Source of the DNA: Arthrobacter sp. ATA002
GTDB taxonomy: Bacteria > Actinomycetota > Actinomycetes > Actinomycetales > Micrococcaceae
Direction: 5' to 3'
NCBI RefSeq assembly: GCF_026898095.1
Contig: NZ_CP114015.1
Coordinates: 2,914,001 to 2,978,000, forward strand
DNA: 64,000 nt
How positions within the stretch are numbered: the first letter of the stretch is position 1; each line of letters starts with the position of its first letter. The notes under the pieces are model-generated. The model saw nothing but the letters and a program-made list of their open reading frames with translations. It ran no database searches and was not told where the DNA came from. The position numbers were made by a program, and so were the translations under genes. Of the stretch, positions 5,821-57,998 are shown piece by piece.

Positions 5821-6717
5821 GTGACTTCTCCCTCGATGCCCCAGGACAGTTCTTCCCCTTCCGCGGCGGCTCCGGCCCAAACGGCTGCCGCGCCCGGTTC
5901 CGCACTCGAAGAGCAGGCGGGCCATCCCTGGAGAAGGTACGTCGCCCTCGGCGATTCCTTCACCGAAGGAATCGGTGACCCCAATCCGGAGAGCCCCGGC
6001 GGTCACCGCGGCTGGGCGGACCGGGTGGCGGAGGAGCTGGCCCGTGACCGGGAGAACTTCGCTTATGCCAACCTCGCCATCCGGGGACGGCTGCTGGATC
6101 AGATCATCAATGAGCAGTTGCAGCCCGCACTGGACCTGAAGCCGGATCTGGTCACGATCTGCGCCGGCGGGAACGATGTCATCCGGCCCGGCGGCGACCC
6201 CGACAGGCTGGCCGAAAAGATGGACGCCGCGATCGCACAGCTGGCGGGAAGCGGCGCCACAGTGGTGCTCTTCACGGGCCCCGATCTGGGCACCACCCCG
6301 GTGCTGGGCAGTGTCCGGGGACGGGTGGCTGTTTACAACGAGAACCTGCGGACCGTCGCCGCCCGGCACGACGTCGTCATCGCCGACATGTGGGCGCTGC
6401 GGGAGCTCAGCGCCCGGGACATGTGGGCGCCGGACCGGCTGCACTTTTCACCGCTCGGCCACCACACGATTGCGGCCATGGTGCTGGACACCCTCGCCGT
6501 CCGGCACACCCTGGAGCCGCTGGAACCCAAGCCGCTGCCGCCGAAAAACTGGCGCACCGCACGCACCGAGGACCTGACCTGGGCGCGCGAATACTTCATG
6601 CCGTGGGTGGTGCGCCGGGTGCGGCACCGCTCCTCCGGTGACGGAATCGAGGCAAAGCGTCCCGTGGCCGGGCCGATTTTCGGCGGCCCCGGAATGCCCC
6701 CGGGCTCGGCCGACTAA
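5821..6717 (+). CDS. SGNH/GDSL-type hydrolase
   Basis: 298 residues starting at a GTG. Block I is YVALGDSFTEGIGDPN (nucleophile Ser), block III is ICAGGNDV, and block V is DRLHFSPLGHH with the catalytic Asp and His. These are the defining blocks of the SGNH family. The first 38 residues are Ala/Pro/Ser-rich and not a signal peptide, and the C-terminal tail is basic. Ester substrate unknown. Two possible starts (5821 and an ATG at 5836) both keep block I. Confidence 0.88.
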   Translation: MTSPSMPQDSSSPSAAAPAQTAAAPGSALEEQAGHPWRRYVALGDSFTEGIGDPNPESPGGHRGWADRVAEELARDRENFAYANLAIRGRLLDQIINEQLQPALDLKPDLVTICAGGNDVIRPGGDPDRLAEKMDAAIAQLAGSGATVVLFTGPDLGTTPVLGSVRGRVAVYNENLRTVAARHDVVIADMWALRELSARDMWAPDRLHFSPLGHHTIAAMVLDTLAVRHTLEPLEPKPLPPKNWRTARTEDLTWAREYFMPWVVRRVRHRSSGDGIEAKRPVAGPIFGGPGMPPGSAD

Positions 6718-9867: not shown

Positions 9868-9984
9868 GACCCGCGCTTGCCGTACGTCCGTTTGACGTAC
9901 AGCCAGGTCTTCACCCGGGGCACCCCACCGCGGTTGGAGGGTTGCCGGCCAGCAAGCCGGGGCTGTCTGCTGGCACTCATGACC
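9868..9984 (-). promoter_or_regulatory. SAM-IV riboswitch
   Basis: Read on the minus strand the element begins GGTCATGAGTGCCAGC and continues with CCCCGGCTTGCTGGCCGGC. It then has AACCCTCCAACCGCGGTGGG, GTGCCCCGGGTGA, a variable hairpin, and ends GGCAAGCGCGGGTC. From memory this matches the actinobacterial SAM-IV class nearly base for base, including the terminal pseudoknot segment. It sits about 70 nt before metY, so S-adenosylmethionine should repress metYX. A small hairpin GCCGG-CTCTTTT-CCGGC follows it at about 9841-9857. The remaining gap (9985-10210) holds the promoter side and no further recognised element. Confidence 0.95.
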
Positions 9985-30258: not shown

Positions 30259-30555
30259 TTACTCCTCATCCAGGATGGCAGGGACCTTGAAGCGGCCGGC
30301 AGCATTGTCGGGAGCACCGGAGAGCGCTTCTTCGTTGGTCAGCGTCTGCCCCACAACATCCTCGCGGAACACGTTGGTCAGCGGGATCGGGTGGGAGGTG
30401 GCCGGGATGTCTTCGCCGGCAACTTCGCTTACGGATTTGATCGAATCAACAATGACATCCAGTTCGCCGGCCATTTTGGCCAGTTCGTCCTCGGTCATCT
30501 CAATGTGGGCCAGATGCGCCAGGTGCGCCACAGCCTCACGATTGATCTCAGACAT
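30259..30555 (-). CDS. gatC: Asp-tRNA(Asn)/Glu-tRNA(Gln) amidotransferase subunit C
   Basis: 98-residue assembly subunit that wraps between GatA and GatB. Contains [20 protein letters not shown] and the C-terminal RFKVPAIL segment of the family. A GGGAG ribosome-binding site precedes the ATG. Confidence 0.95.
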
Positions 30556-30575
30556 GAGTCTCCCATGCGTCTTTT

Positions 30576-30596
30576 ACGGATAAATAAGGTATCCGT
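30576..30596. promoter_or_regulatory. Dyad in the gatC leader/promoter
   Basis: ACGGATA-AATAAGG-TATCCGT, a perfect 7-bp-arm inverted repeat 21 bp upstream of gatC. Its AT content contrasts with the surroundings, so it may overlap the promoter or act as a regulator site. Confidence 0.4.
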
Positions 30597-30700
30597 TCCA
30601 GTCTACGGCGTTTACTGGTGCGGTTTTCCGGGTTTCGGGGCGGGGCGGGCGCCTGTGAAGCCGCCGGTGCGGGCTTCTGTGAAGCCGCCGGTGCTGCGAA

Positions 30701-30882
30701 TCCGTTGTACAGCTAACGGGCTTTAGCACCCTCCCAGCCCATCCGTTGTACAGCTAACGGGCTATAGCACCCTCCCAGCCCATCCGTTGTACAGCTAACG
30801 GGCTTTAGCACCCTCCCAGCCCATCCGTTGTACAGATGACGGGCCCAAAACCTCGTCTTGGGCCCGTCATCTGTACAACGGA
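30701..30882. repeat. Family A dyad repeat, array 2 (four direct and one inverted copy)
   Basis: Direct copies of TCCGTTGTACAGCTAACGGG or variants start at 30701, 30742, 30783 and 30824, a strict 41-bp period. The spacers are nearly identical (TTAGCACCCTCCCAGCCCA). The last copy reads TCCGTTGTACAGATGACGGG and pairs perfectly over about 25 bp with an inverted copy at 30858-30882, a long hairpin with a loop of about 10 nt. The array fills most of the gap between gatC and the GNAT gene. The rest of 30556-31095 holds the gatC promoter dyad and the terminator at 31030-31061. Confidence 0.92.
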
Positions 30883-31029
30883 CGTCATGCGTTCATCGAG
30901 TGTGCAGATCTGGCGGCTTCCCTACCACCATGGCTTCCGAGTGTGCAGGCCTGGCGGCTTCGAAGGCGTCCGCAGCCCCGGAGCATACCCGGGCCAGGAC
31001 CGCCCGCCGGTACCCGGACCGCACGACGA

Positions 31030-31061
31030 AACCCCCATCCGCATAAACGCGGATGAGGGTT
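31030..31061 (-). terminator. Terminator-like hairpin after the GNAT gene
   Basis: 13-bp arms with one mismatch (AACCCCCATCCGC / GCGGATGAGGGTT) and a 6-nt loop, 35 bp beyond the GNAT stop. On the minus strand it is followed by GTTTCG, only a short U-rich stretch. Confidence 0.6.
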
Positions 31062-31095
31062 CAACCTGCCTCGGCTACACAAGCCGAAGCGCGGA

Positions 31096-31590
31096 TCAGA
31101 GCTCGAGGCGGAAGACCCAGAGGATGATGTCTTCATTGGGTACGTACCAGTCACGCTCGGGAACGCGCTTGAAGCCCATGGACAGGTACAGGGCATGGGC
31201 GTTGGTCATCGGGGTCATGCTGGTCAGGCTGACACTGTGGATGCCGTCGAGGCTGCGCGCGTACTCGATCACGGCCGCAACCAGCGCCCGGCCGACGCCG
31301 CCGCGCTGCAGGGCGGGGTCCACGGCGAGCATCCGGAATTCCAGTTCGCCCTCGACGGCGATGTCGGTGTAGGGCTGTCCGGCGAAGGTAATCGCGGTTG
31401 ACGCCGCCACTTTTCCGTCCAGCTCGGCCACCCAGACCAGCGCGTTCGCCGCACGGTCTTCTACGTTTTCAAGTTCCTTGACGTAGGGATTATCTGCCTC
31501 GATGAACCCTGCGCTGAGGTACGCATCACGGGTGATCCGGCGGATGTCGTCAAAGTCTGCCGCGGTGGCCTGCCGGACGGTGATGCTCAT
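31096..31590 (-). CDS. GNAT family N-acetyltransferase
   Basis: 164 residues, single GNAT domain: RQATAADFDDIRRITRDAY at the N-terminus, ELEFRMLAVDPALQRGGVGRALV (acetyl-CoA-binding Q/RxxGxG/A loop) in the middle and NAHALYLSMGFKRV near the end. Acceptor unknown. Confidence 0.88.
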   Translation of the reverse strand: MSITVRQATAADFDDIRRITRDAYLSAGFIEADNPYVKELENVEDRAANALVWVAELDGKVAASTAITFAGQPYTDIAVEGELEFRMLAVDPALQRGGVGRALVAAVIEYARSLDGIHSVSLTSMTPMTNAHALYLSMGFKRVPERDWYVPNEDIILWVFRLEL

Positions 31591-57877: not shown

Positions 57878-57998
57878 TCCGTTGTACAGATAACGGGCCT
57901 CCACCCCATCCGTTGTACAGATAACGGGCCTCCACCCCATCCGTTGTACAGATAACGGGCTTCCACCGACTCTTTGAGCCCGTTATCTGTACAACGGA
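57878..57998. repeat. Family A dyad repeat, array 3 (three direct and one inverted copy)
   Basis: Three direct copies of TCCGTTGTACAGATAACGGG start at 57878, 57909 and 57940, a strict 31-bp period with identical 8-9 bp spacers (CCACCCCA). The last copy pairs over about 21 bp with an inverted copy at 57977-57998. The array lies in the divergent intergenic region between the SDR gene and the carboxylase gene; the rest of 57774-58246 holds the dyad at 58100-58115 and the carboxylase promoter. Confidence 0.93.

Follow-up and report, generated by a model that had tools for sequence, protein, structure and literature searches.

The repeat that an earlier note on this DNA had called Family A is the local dialect, here T1, of a repeat superfamily in Arthrobacter-type Micrococcaceae. 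The superfamily is real, and no earlier description of it was found in the literature searched. Its arrays may be REPIN/BIME-like modules whose half-sites are read in duplex DNA by a putative sequence-specific protein and which spread as mobile DNA, a reading on which we are evenly divided.

Arrays in the window and along the chromosome

The window is the whole 64-kb stretch of DNA analysed, positions 2,914,001 to 2,978,000 of a genome of 3.90 Mb in one contig (G000). Three arrays had been described in it and all three are present, at 814-911, 30702-30881 and 57879-57997; the dyad CCGTT-N8-AACGG, with up to one mismatch, matches 14 times in the window against 2.5 expected, a count reached by none of 100 shuffles. 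Units on the plus strand are termed D and those on the minus strand I. They were placed by dyad and 18-mer searches with register alignment, and the innermost D and the I units of arrays 2 and 3 by dyad search, register alignment and folding. Array 1 has a degenerate D unit (CTCTCGTACAGATACCGG, 814-831, +), placed by register alignment and starting 39 bp before the I unit that follows (46 bp from anchor to anchor, the anchor being GTACAG), and two I units with a 41-bp period (853-870 and 894-911, both -). Array 2 has three D units with a 41-bp period (30702-30719, 30743-30760 and 30784-30801, all +) and an innermost D unit, a GATGACGG variant (30825-30842, +), that stands opposite the I unit (30864-30881, -). 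This array lies between gatC and an acetyltransferase gene. Array 3 has two D units with a 31-bp period (57879-57896 and 57910-57927, both +), an innermost D unit (57941-57958, +) and an I unit (57980-57997, -). Adjoining array 2 is a cousin unit of another dialect, T3 (GTGCAGATCTGGCGGCTT, 30902-30919, +), which falls within a stretch common to a second locus, L033, and 41 bp from it lies a second T3 unit (GTGCAGGCCTGGCGGCTT, 30943-30960, +). This T3 pair (GTGCAG..TGGCGGCTT, 30902-30960) comes right after the array, and T3 units recur at several of the same gaps in sister species.

The periods of 41 bp in array 2 and 31 bp in array 3 were confirmed, but the spacers, said to be identical, are not entirely so, as one of the three array-2 D-D spacers is off by one base. 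Likewise, the innermost D unit does form a long hairpin with an I unit, but the inverted copies, said always to number one, range from 1 to 6 per G000 array. The internal dyad had been taken as the defining feature of the unit and cannot serve as such: all five pairs are present in 21 of 51 T1 units, and none of the five is commoner in these units than independent columns would give. The conserved part of the unit is directional, with TC at positions -6/-5, GTACAGAT at 0-7 and then AAC-GGG, and the half-site is a directional element of about 25 bp with the framework TC-NNNN-GTNCAGAT-NNN-GGG. In RNA folding, a single unit gives a weak fold (-6.3 kcal/mol, z -1.7), whole D-I modules of the window give strong ones (about -30 to -58 kcal/mol, z -7 to -12), and the innermost D-I hairpins, folded from the plus strand, give -50.4, -40.4 and -30.2 kcal/mol (z -10.6, -10.6 and -7.1). 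A SAM-IV riboswitch lies at 9868-9984 (-) of the window (122.5 bits, above the Rfam gathering threshold); at that threshold Rfam returned nothing else in the whole window, and the riboswitch is away from the arrays.

A genome-wide search, as had been proposed, found the 18-mer 51 times when up to 3 mismatches were allowed; its reversed control matched 3 times. Fifty of the 51 fall in 12 intergenic arrays of G000, and the lone match outside them, at 2,947,343, is probably due to chance. Neither across the genome nor in relatives were copies found scattered at random positions without period, spacer or hairpin. In every G000 array a D unit is followed by an I unit at exactly 46 bp, and in all 14 D-I modules of the 12 arrays the 18-mers start 39 bp apart and the GTACAG anchors are separated by 46 bp, with an inner spacer of constant length and variable sequence. 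The D-I pairs are extended by extra D units on the left and extra I units on the right, at spacings that are mostly 31, 41 or 42 bp, and compound arrays occur both in G000 (locus L037) and in relatives. Seven of the 12 arrays cluster within 2.866-2.984 Mb (118 kb, 3% of the chromosome), and none of the 51 matches lies below 1.46 Mb or above 3.34 Mb. At L037:5481-5846 a whole D-I module with its flanks is present in three copies in one gap, a local module duplication. Also at L037 (735-1055), beside the maf array, lies a small gene whose product resembles a DUF559/Vsr-type endonuclease by eye, and this region has a diverged counterpart in the relative G003 (66.6% over 464 bp).

Spacings between successive units are quantised. 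In 155 kb of G000, 14 of the 15 D-I neighbour pairs within 90 bp are 46 bp apart, D-D distances (n = 17) are 31 bp in six cases and 41 bp in five, and I-I distances (n = 11) are 31 bp twice, 41 bp six times and 42 bp twice. In 568 kb from relatives, D-I distances (n = 73) are 46 bp in 56 cases and 56 bp in five, D-D and I-I distances peak at 31, 41 and 42 bp, and the I-D distance is 25 or 26 bp in 10 of 17. The steps of 31 and 41/42 bp, together with the shift from 46 to 56 bp, suggest duplex DNA in helical register; the D-I distance of 46 bp and the I-D distance of 25/26 bp fit whole turns poorly, which is evidence against the simplest phasing model. Other recurrent spacings between GTNCAG-like anchors in relatives, 69 bp (20 pairs) and 24 bp (7 pairs), may belong to another repeat.

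Dialects and turnover among relatives

An exact scan of GTDB genomes, from which near records of G000's own genome may be left out, returned T1-type modules in 12 stretches, all of them from Arthrobacter or Paenarthrobacter. In the bacterial family sample, T1-type matches with up to 3 mismatches were found in 25 of 395 genomes, and GTNCAGNTNNNGG-N21-CCNNNANCTGNAC without mismatch in 29 of 395 genomes and 4 of 32 genera (reversed control 0/395). A pattern 10 bp longer, with anchors 56 bp apart, matched 6 of 295 genomes (G003 18 times, G007 5, G019 4, G002 3, G008 3 and G031 once, the last coding-like), while the reversed control matched 2 of 295 once each; this sample included 24 of the 29 genus genomes, G001 and G022-G025 being absent. 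Single matches in the 46- and 56-bp scans, such as that of G031, may reflect coding sequence or chance. At 46 bp, G000 has 14 modules and G003 none; at 56 bp, G000 has none and G003 has 18. As G002, G003 and G019 are among the closest relatives of G000, with GatC 100% identical, it follows that near relatives use another dialect, T2, with a spacing longer by about one helical turn.

The dialects also differ in sequence. Among modules with GG at +11/+12 in both arms (77 of 93 at 46 bp and 30 of 36 at 56 bp, some of them related copies), GTNCAG has A as its third base in 116 of 154 arms at 46 bp and G in 58 of 60 arms at 56 bp. The T3 dialect, GTGCAG[AG]TNTGGCGGCTT, adjoins array 2 (30902 and 30943) and is present in several relatives. 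Among the matches listed, GTACAG and GAACAG variants with the 46-bp spacing are found in G023 and G024, and G024 has T2 arrays as well. A possible further cousin unit (GTGCAGTAGATGCTGCC, by eye) adjoins T1 arrays in L049, L059, L061, L063 and L066, at a locus common to several species.

At the 12 array loci of G000, G003 has T2 units in the corresponding place at six: parC/copA, dusB, the array-1 locus, gatC, maf and lpd/MFS. The right side of the dusB gap is not collinear, and at maf and lpd/MFS G003 has a same-strand pair only. No array was found in G003 at pccB, fpg, adh, dxr, zapE or ROK, the last five searched up to 1.5 kb from the anchor. The gatC gap holds an array in a different code in G002, G003, G007, G008, G019 and G024, none in G023, and none in G001 and G012, where the gap is short (by eye); pccB has a T2-like array in G019 (by eye). 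At fpg, G002 has T2, G024 both T2 and T1, G007, G008 and G019 have T3, and G003 has none; with dialects so mixed, gaps that tolerate arrays may as well have been colonised repeatedly as have switched dialect in place. T1 arrays lie downstream of the heme A synthase gene in G009 and G010, and T2 arrays do so in G003, G019 and G007, the other neighbour being different in G003 (all by eye).

Units at different loci of one genome are 86.0% identical in G000, whose set includes two T3 units, and 78.2% in G003, while between G000 and G003 identity is 73.0% for units of one locus and 70.9% for units of different loci. These identities point to homogenisation, clear in G000 and weaker in G003, whose units are diverse. 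The two genomes differ at positions -3, -1 and +2 of the unit.

Copying between loci is suggested by a stretch of 134 bp at 30783-30916, containing two D units, the I unit and part of a T3 unit of array 2 at the gatC locus, that is 87% identical to the csbD/zapE array (L033), array-specific spacer included, and is bounded by a T3-unit edge and a T1-unit edge. In six of six relatives a search within 1.5 kb of the zapE anchor turned up no array (the csbD side is within the compared stretch in G002, G008, G019 and G024, not in G003 and G007). The shared stretch and the lack of a detected zapE array in relatives together imply that one of the two loci received its module from the other, gatC being the simplest source and zapE the recipient. 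At the shared-module locus neither a clean empty site nor a target duplication could be made out, and a masked comparison of the 12 arrays and their flanks gave, besides array 2/L033, just short weak matches. Near the ROK gene, no array was found in the five relatives examined. Stretches of the csbD/zapE gap of G000 (L033, about 5950-6120) resemble part of an epimerase-like gene of G003 and G019, which suggests, by eye and from one 72-bp match to G019, that a decayed gene adjoins the shared array.

A proposed reading of half-sites in duplex DNA and its rivals

Each basic module consists of two directional half-sites of about 25 bp that converge at a dialect-specific distance, to which further same-strand half-sites are added at about three or four helical turns, probably via tandem duplication. 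In the preferred reading, a putative sequence-specific protein would bind these half-sites while the DNA is duplex, forming a phased complex, the same protein or a linked enzyme would spread the modules as non-autonomous mobile DNA, and shifts in the specificity and geometry of the protein would drive the turnover of dialects. The quantised spacings, the linkage of dialect to spacing, the unpaired arms, the likeness of units within a genome and the shared module all support it.

The complementarity of the two arms bears most directly on whether a hairpin or a duplex is recognised; the position tests are uncorrected (13 positions per dialect in the 46- and 56-bp arm set, 20 in the six-genome T1 set). 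In T2, both arms carry the same +8..+10 triplet in 1 of 30 modules (4.6 expected, P 0.03) and the same base at +10 in 3 of the 30 (10.6 expected, P 0.002), whereas position +19 agrees above expectation (23/30 against 17.2). By class at +8 (21 modules), same-side units are alike in 53 of 77 pairs and opposite-side units in 31 of 100, and of the 21 innermost pairs, 11 set C-class against A-class, 5 join two A-class units, 2 join two C-class units and 3 are of other kinds. In 49 T1 modules from six genomes, agreement at the inner positions 14-19 comes to 135 of 294 cells, fewer than the 152 obtained by shuffling the I arms inside each genome (P for 135 or more matches = 0.9995), with positions 15 (18/49 against 26.6) and 19 (7/49 against 15.0) below expectation. 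Outer positions (144/245 against 137.7 expected) and the core (124/147 against 121.6) do not differ from shuffles; arm agreement is above expectation at positions -7 and +6, and the outer positions tend towards complementarity when G000 is taken by itself (53/70 against 48.2 expected, P 0.044). When T1 arms are pooled over genera, agreement at +8..+10 exceeds expectation (46/77 against 29), at least partly because genomes differ in dialect. Most positions thus show no pairing above chance and some differ too much, so that protein sites on duplex DNA fit better than selection for a hairpin, and on balance D and I units are alike because both copy one site rather than because the arms pair. The excess of mismatches can alternatively be read as the purging of perfect, unstable palindromes.

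Several observations stand against the preferred reading of half-sites read in duplex. No cognate protein was found, the counts of DUF222-HNH proteins being uninformative; some arm positions agree above chance (pooled T1, T2 +19, T1 -7/+6 and the outer positions of G000); arrays were found at just half of the G000 loci in G003; the D-I and I-D distances are off whole turns; neither a clean empty site nor a target duplication could be read; and the contrast between own-genome and same-locus identity is clear for G000 only.

Its strongest rival, which we consider unlikely though far from negligible, is a true REPIN-type hairpin, recognised as such, whose mobility as single-stranded DNA would depend on an HUH enzyme missed by the Y1_Tnp model or since lost. 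Inverted doublets at a fixed distance with variable loop sequence, the very stable hairpins, the REPIN-like layout (71/110 bp in the GI/GII groups, in the excerpted text of PMC3116915), the shared module and the few arm positions that agree above expectation would all be accounted for. The mostly mismatched +8..+10 of T2 arms, the T1 inner positions that pair less than shuffles and the same-strand half-sites at 31/41/42 bp outside the hairpin argue the other way, although the conserved mismatches could themselves be recognised. The enzyme is a further difficulty: Y1_Tnp (PF01797; RAYT) was detected neither in G000 nor in any of 29 genus genomes, while the control was positive in 5 of 14 known genomes, and Y1/RAYT was rejected as the mover of the arrays.

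DUF222-HNH (13E12) proteins, with 3-23 matches in each of the 29 genus genomes, were likewise rejected as the cognate protein, since their counts fail to separate module-bearing from module-free genomes and follow phylogeny: 4-9 matches in module-free G004, G005, G006, G011, G012, G013 and G015, 3 in G001 (46-bp scan only), 16-18 in module-free G016, G018 and G028, and 6 and 9 in module-bearing G023 and G026. Their link to the arrays is a weak lead. By coordinates, a DUF222-HNH gene lies no more than a few kb from the zapE anchor in G002, G003, G008, G019 and G024, and no more than a few kb from gatC in G009, G010, G018, G020, G021, G022, G027 and G028. A phage, plasmid or viral origin was rejected for want of matches: viral contigs (IMG/VR) gave no exact pattern match at 46 or 56 bp, and plasmids and phages no blastn match for array 2. 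The arrays are not CRISPR arrays either, as units also occur inverted and the same-side spacers of an array are near-copies of each other.

Arrays lie in gaps that are seldom divergent. Among gaps of 120-1500 bp in G000, G003/G019/G007 and G009/G010, from stretches chosen for holding arrays and with genes called by our own codon-usage script, those with arrays (n = 46) are convergent in 14 cases, tandem in 30 and divergent in 2, against 11, 86 and 40 of the 137 array-free gaps. The Fisher P values for the divergent deficit (2e-4) and the convergent excess (4e-4) are too small because some gaps are orthologous and not independent, and array gaps are also longer (medians 472-665 against 222-314). 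Called genes contain no arrays. The flanking genes are ordinary-looking and unrelated, and no recurrent neighbour gene was seen among the flanks examined (Pfam on 10 of 28 flank proteins of one set, the rest named by eye). This placement speaks against a common operator and for a REP-like niche at gene 3' ends, and the earlier observation of a gene downstream of every array carries no information, array gaps being seldom divergent and often convergent.

The convergent excess (14/46 against 11/137), the divergent deficit (2/46 against 40/137) and the strong RNA folding are what would be expected of a 3'-end element acting in the transcript, where the hairpin ends transcription or shields the upstream mRNA, as REPs can. 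We regard this as improbable: array 3 lies between divergent genes, a simple scan for terminators (loops of 3-8, T run required) found none at 30500-31200, around array 2, and neither the same-strand half-sites nor the mismatched T2 arms are explained. Still less probable is a multi-site operator of one transcription factor with a regulon, another candidate of the earlier note, for which the quantised spacing of directional sites speaks, as do the differences between G000 and G003 at -3, -1 and +2, such as a change in binding specificity might give. The location does not suit it (divergent in 2 of 46 gaps against 40 of 137), the neighbouring genes are unrelated, and not all loci are kept, no array having been found near zapE in 6/6 or near ROK in 5/5 relatives. 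Neutral debris, in the form of quasi-palindromes grown by slippage whose perfect palindromes were purged as unstable, is very improbable, for although it would account for tandem copies on one side of an array whose spacers are nearly identical, and for the absence of arrays inside called genes, and although the 134-bp module common to two loci favours the earlier suggestion of mobile-element debris, one exact D-I distance in 12 loci and in other species, and a second distance tied to a second dialect, are left unexplained.

A broader and more doubtful extension of the preferred duplex reading is that the arrays represent an undescribed Micrococcaceae class of selfish or regulatory polarised half-site pairs, in which a run of one class stands opposite a run of another, read in duplex by a fast-evolving protein family with a dialect-specific code and spacing (46 or 56 bp, a helical turn apart). 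Were this so, some loci common to sister species would be written in different codes. For a direct protein search, an array of some 150 bp from any dialect could serve as bait, with that of a sister species as the matched control.

Comparison with known repeat systems

In a literature search, 13-base strings of the core were unmatched and 11-base strings occurred only in papers with unrelated titles; nothing on these repeats was evident by title among the matches listed, and publication elsewhere is possible. Arthrobacter livingstonensis appears in a table of generic REP counts in PMC12306157, as far as the excerpted text goes, while Arthrobacter and Actinobacteria are unmentioned in the excerpts of the BIME paper PMC6006769.

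REPINs are the closest parallel. According to the excerpted text of PMC3116915, they are pairs of inverted short repeats at a group-specific fixed distance (71 bp for GI and 110 bp for GII in P. fluorescens SBW25) with a variable spacer, extragenic, with groups split by two positions and some ordered tandem clusters, and the Arthrobacter arrays are alike in these respects. The inverted doublet at a fixed distance is present at 46 bp in 14 of 14 G000 modules and at 46 or 56 bp in relatives, and the arrays are extragenic and tend towards gene 3' ends, as REPs do. The same excerpts describe compensatory arm changes as common in REPINs and 1,053 REP sequences in the extragenic space of SBW25. In Arthrobacter such compensation is not seen, outer and core positions being no better than shuffled arms within genomes and inner positions worse; arm complementarity is mostly not above chance, the unit itself is no palindrome, extra half-sites occur at 31/41/42 bp, G000 has about 50 units, and no Y1/RAYT gene accompanies the arrays in 29 of 29 genus genomes. 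The REP-like hairpin element of the earlier note is therefore the closest of its candidates in layout, while the missing Y1/RAYT (0/29) and the mostly absent arm complementarity count against it.

The mosaic organisation recalls BIMEs, with units in both orientations and few allowed spacers (31, 41/42, 46/56 and 25/26 bp) in compound arrays. BIMEs bind gyrase, IHF or Pol I. The Arthrobacter sequence differs from theirs, and runs of D units face runs of I units in place of alternating palindromes. The basic BIME unit is two REPs in inverted orientation (excerpts of PMC6006769), and REPs in BIMEs are regularly spaced and alternate in orientation (excerpts of PMC2817692). CGTC-tagged REPs are dispersed, reportedly without a dedicated transposase, and are palindromes with a CGTC end tag, a tag not seen in the Arthrobacter units; a word search of the main text of PMC3733652, the source for them in excerpt, returned no Arthrobacter, Actinobacteria, Micrococc- or Streptomyces.

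MITEs of DDE transposons have constant terminal repeats and target-site duplications; here one shared module has ends at unit edges, and no clean empty site was made out. The ends of Tn7, Mu and IS21-type transposons carry several directional transposase sites of about 20 bp. In such ends, as here, a directional run of sites faces an opposite run, and the two T2 runs tend to differ in class; unlike in transposon ends, no enclosed gene or constant ends were seen in the arrays, and it is the distance between the runs that is fixed. The arrays resemble REPINs and BIMEs in layout, and membership is not claimed. REPIN-like repeats are usually explained by a Y1 transposase. Here, a REPIN geometry, a genus in which no Y1 was found, arms that mostly do not covary as a hairpin would and a dialect step of about a helical turn suggest that arrays of this sort can be built and kept by another mechanism.
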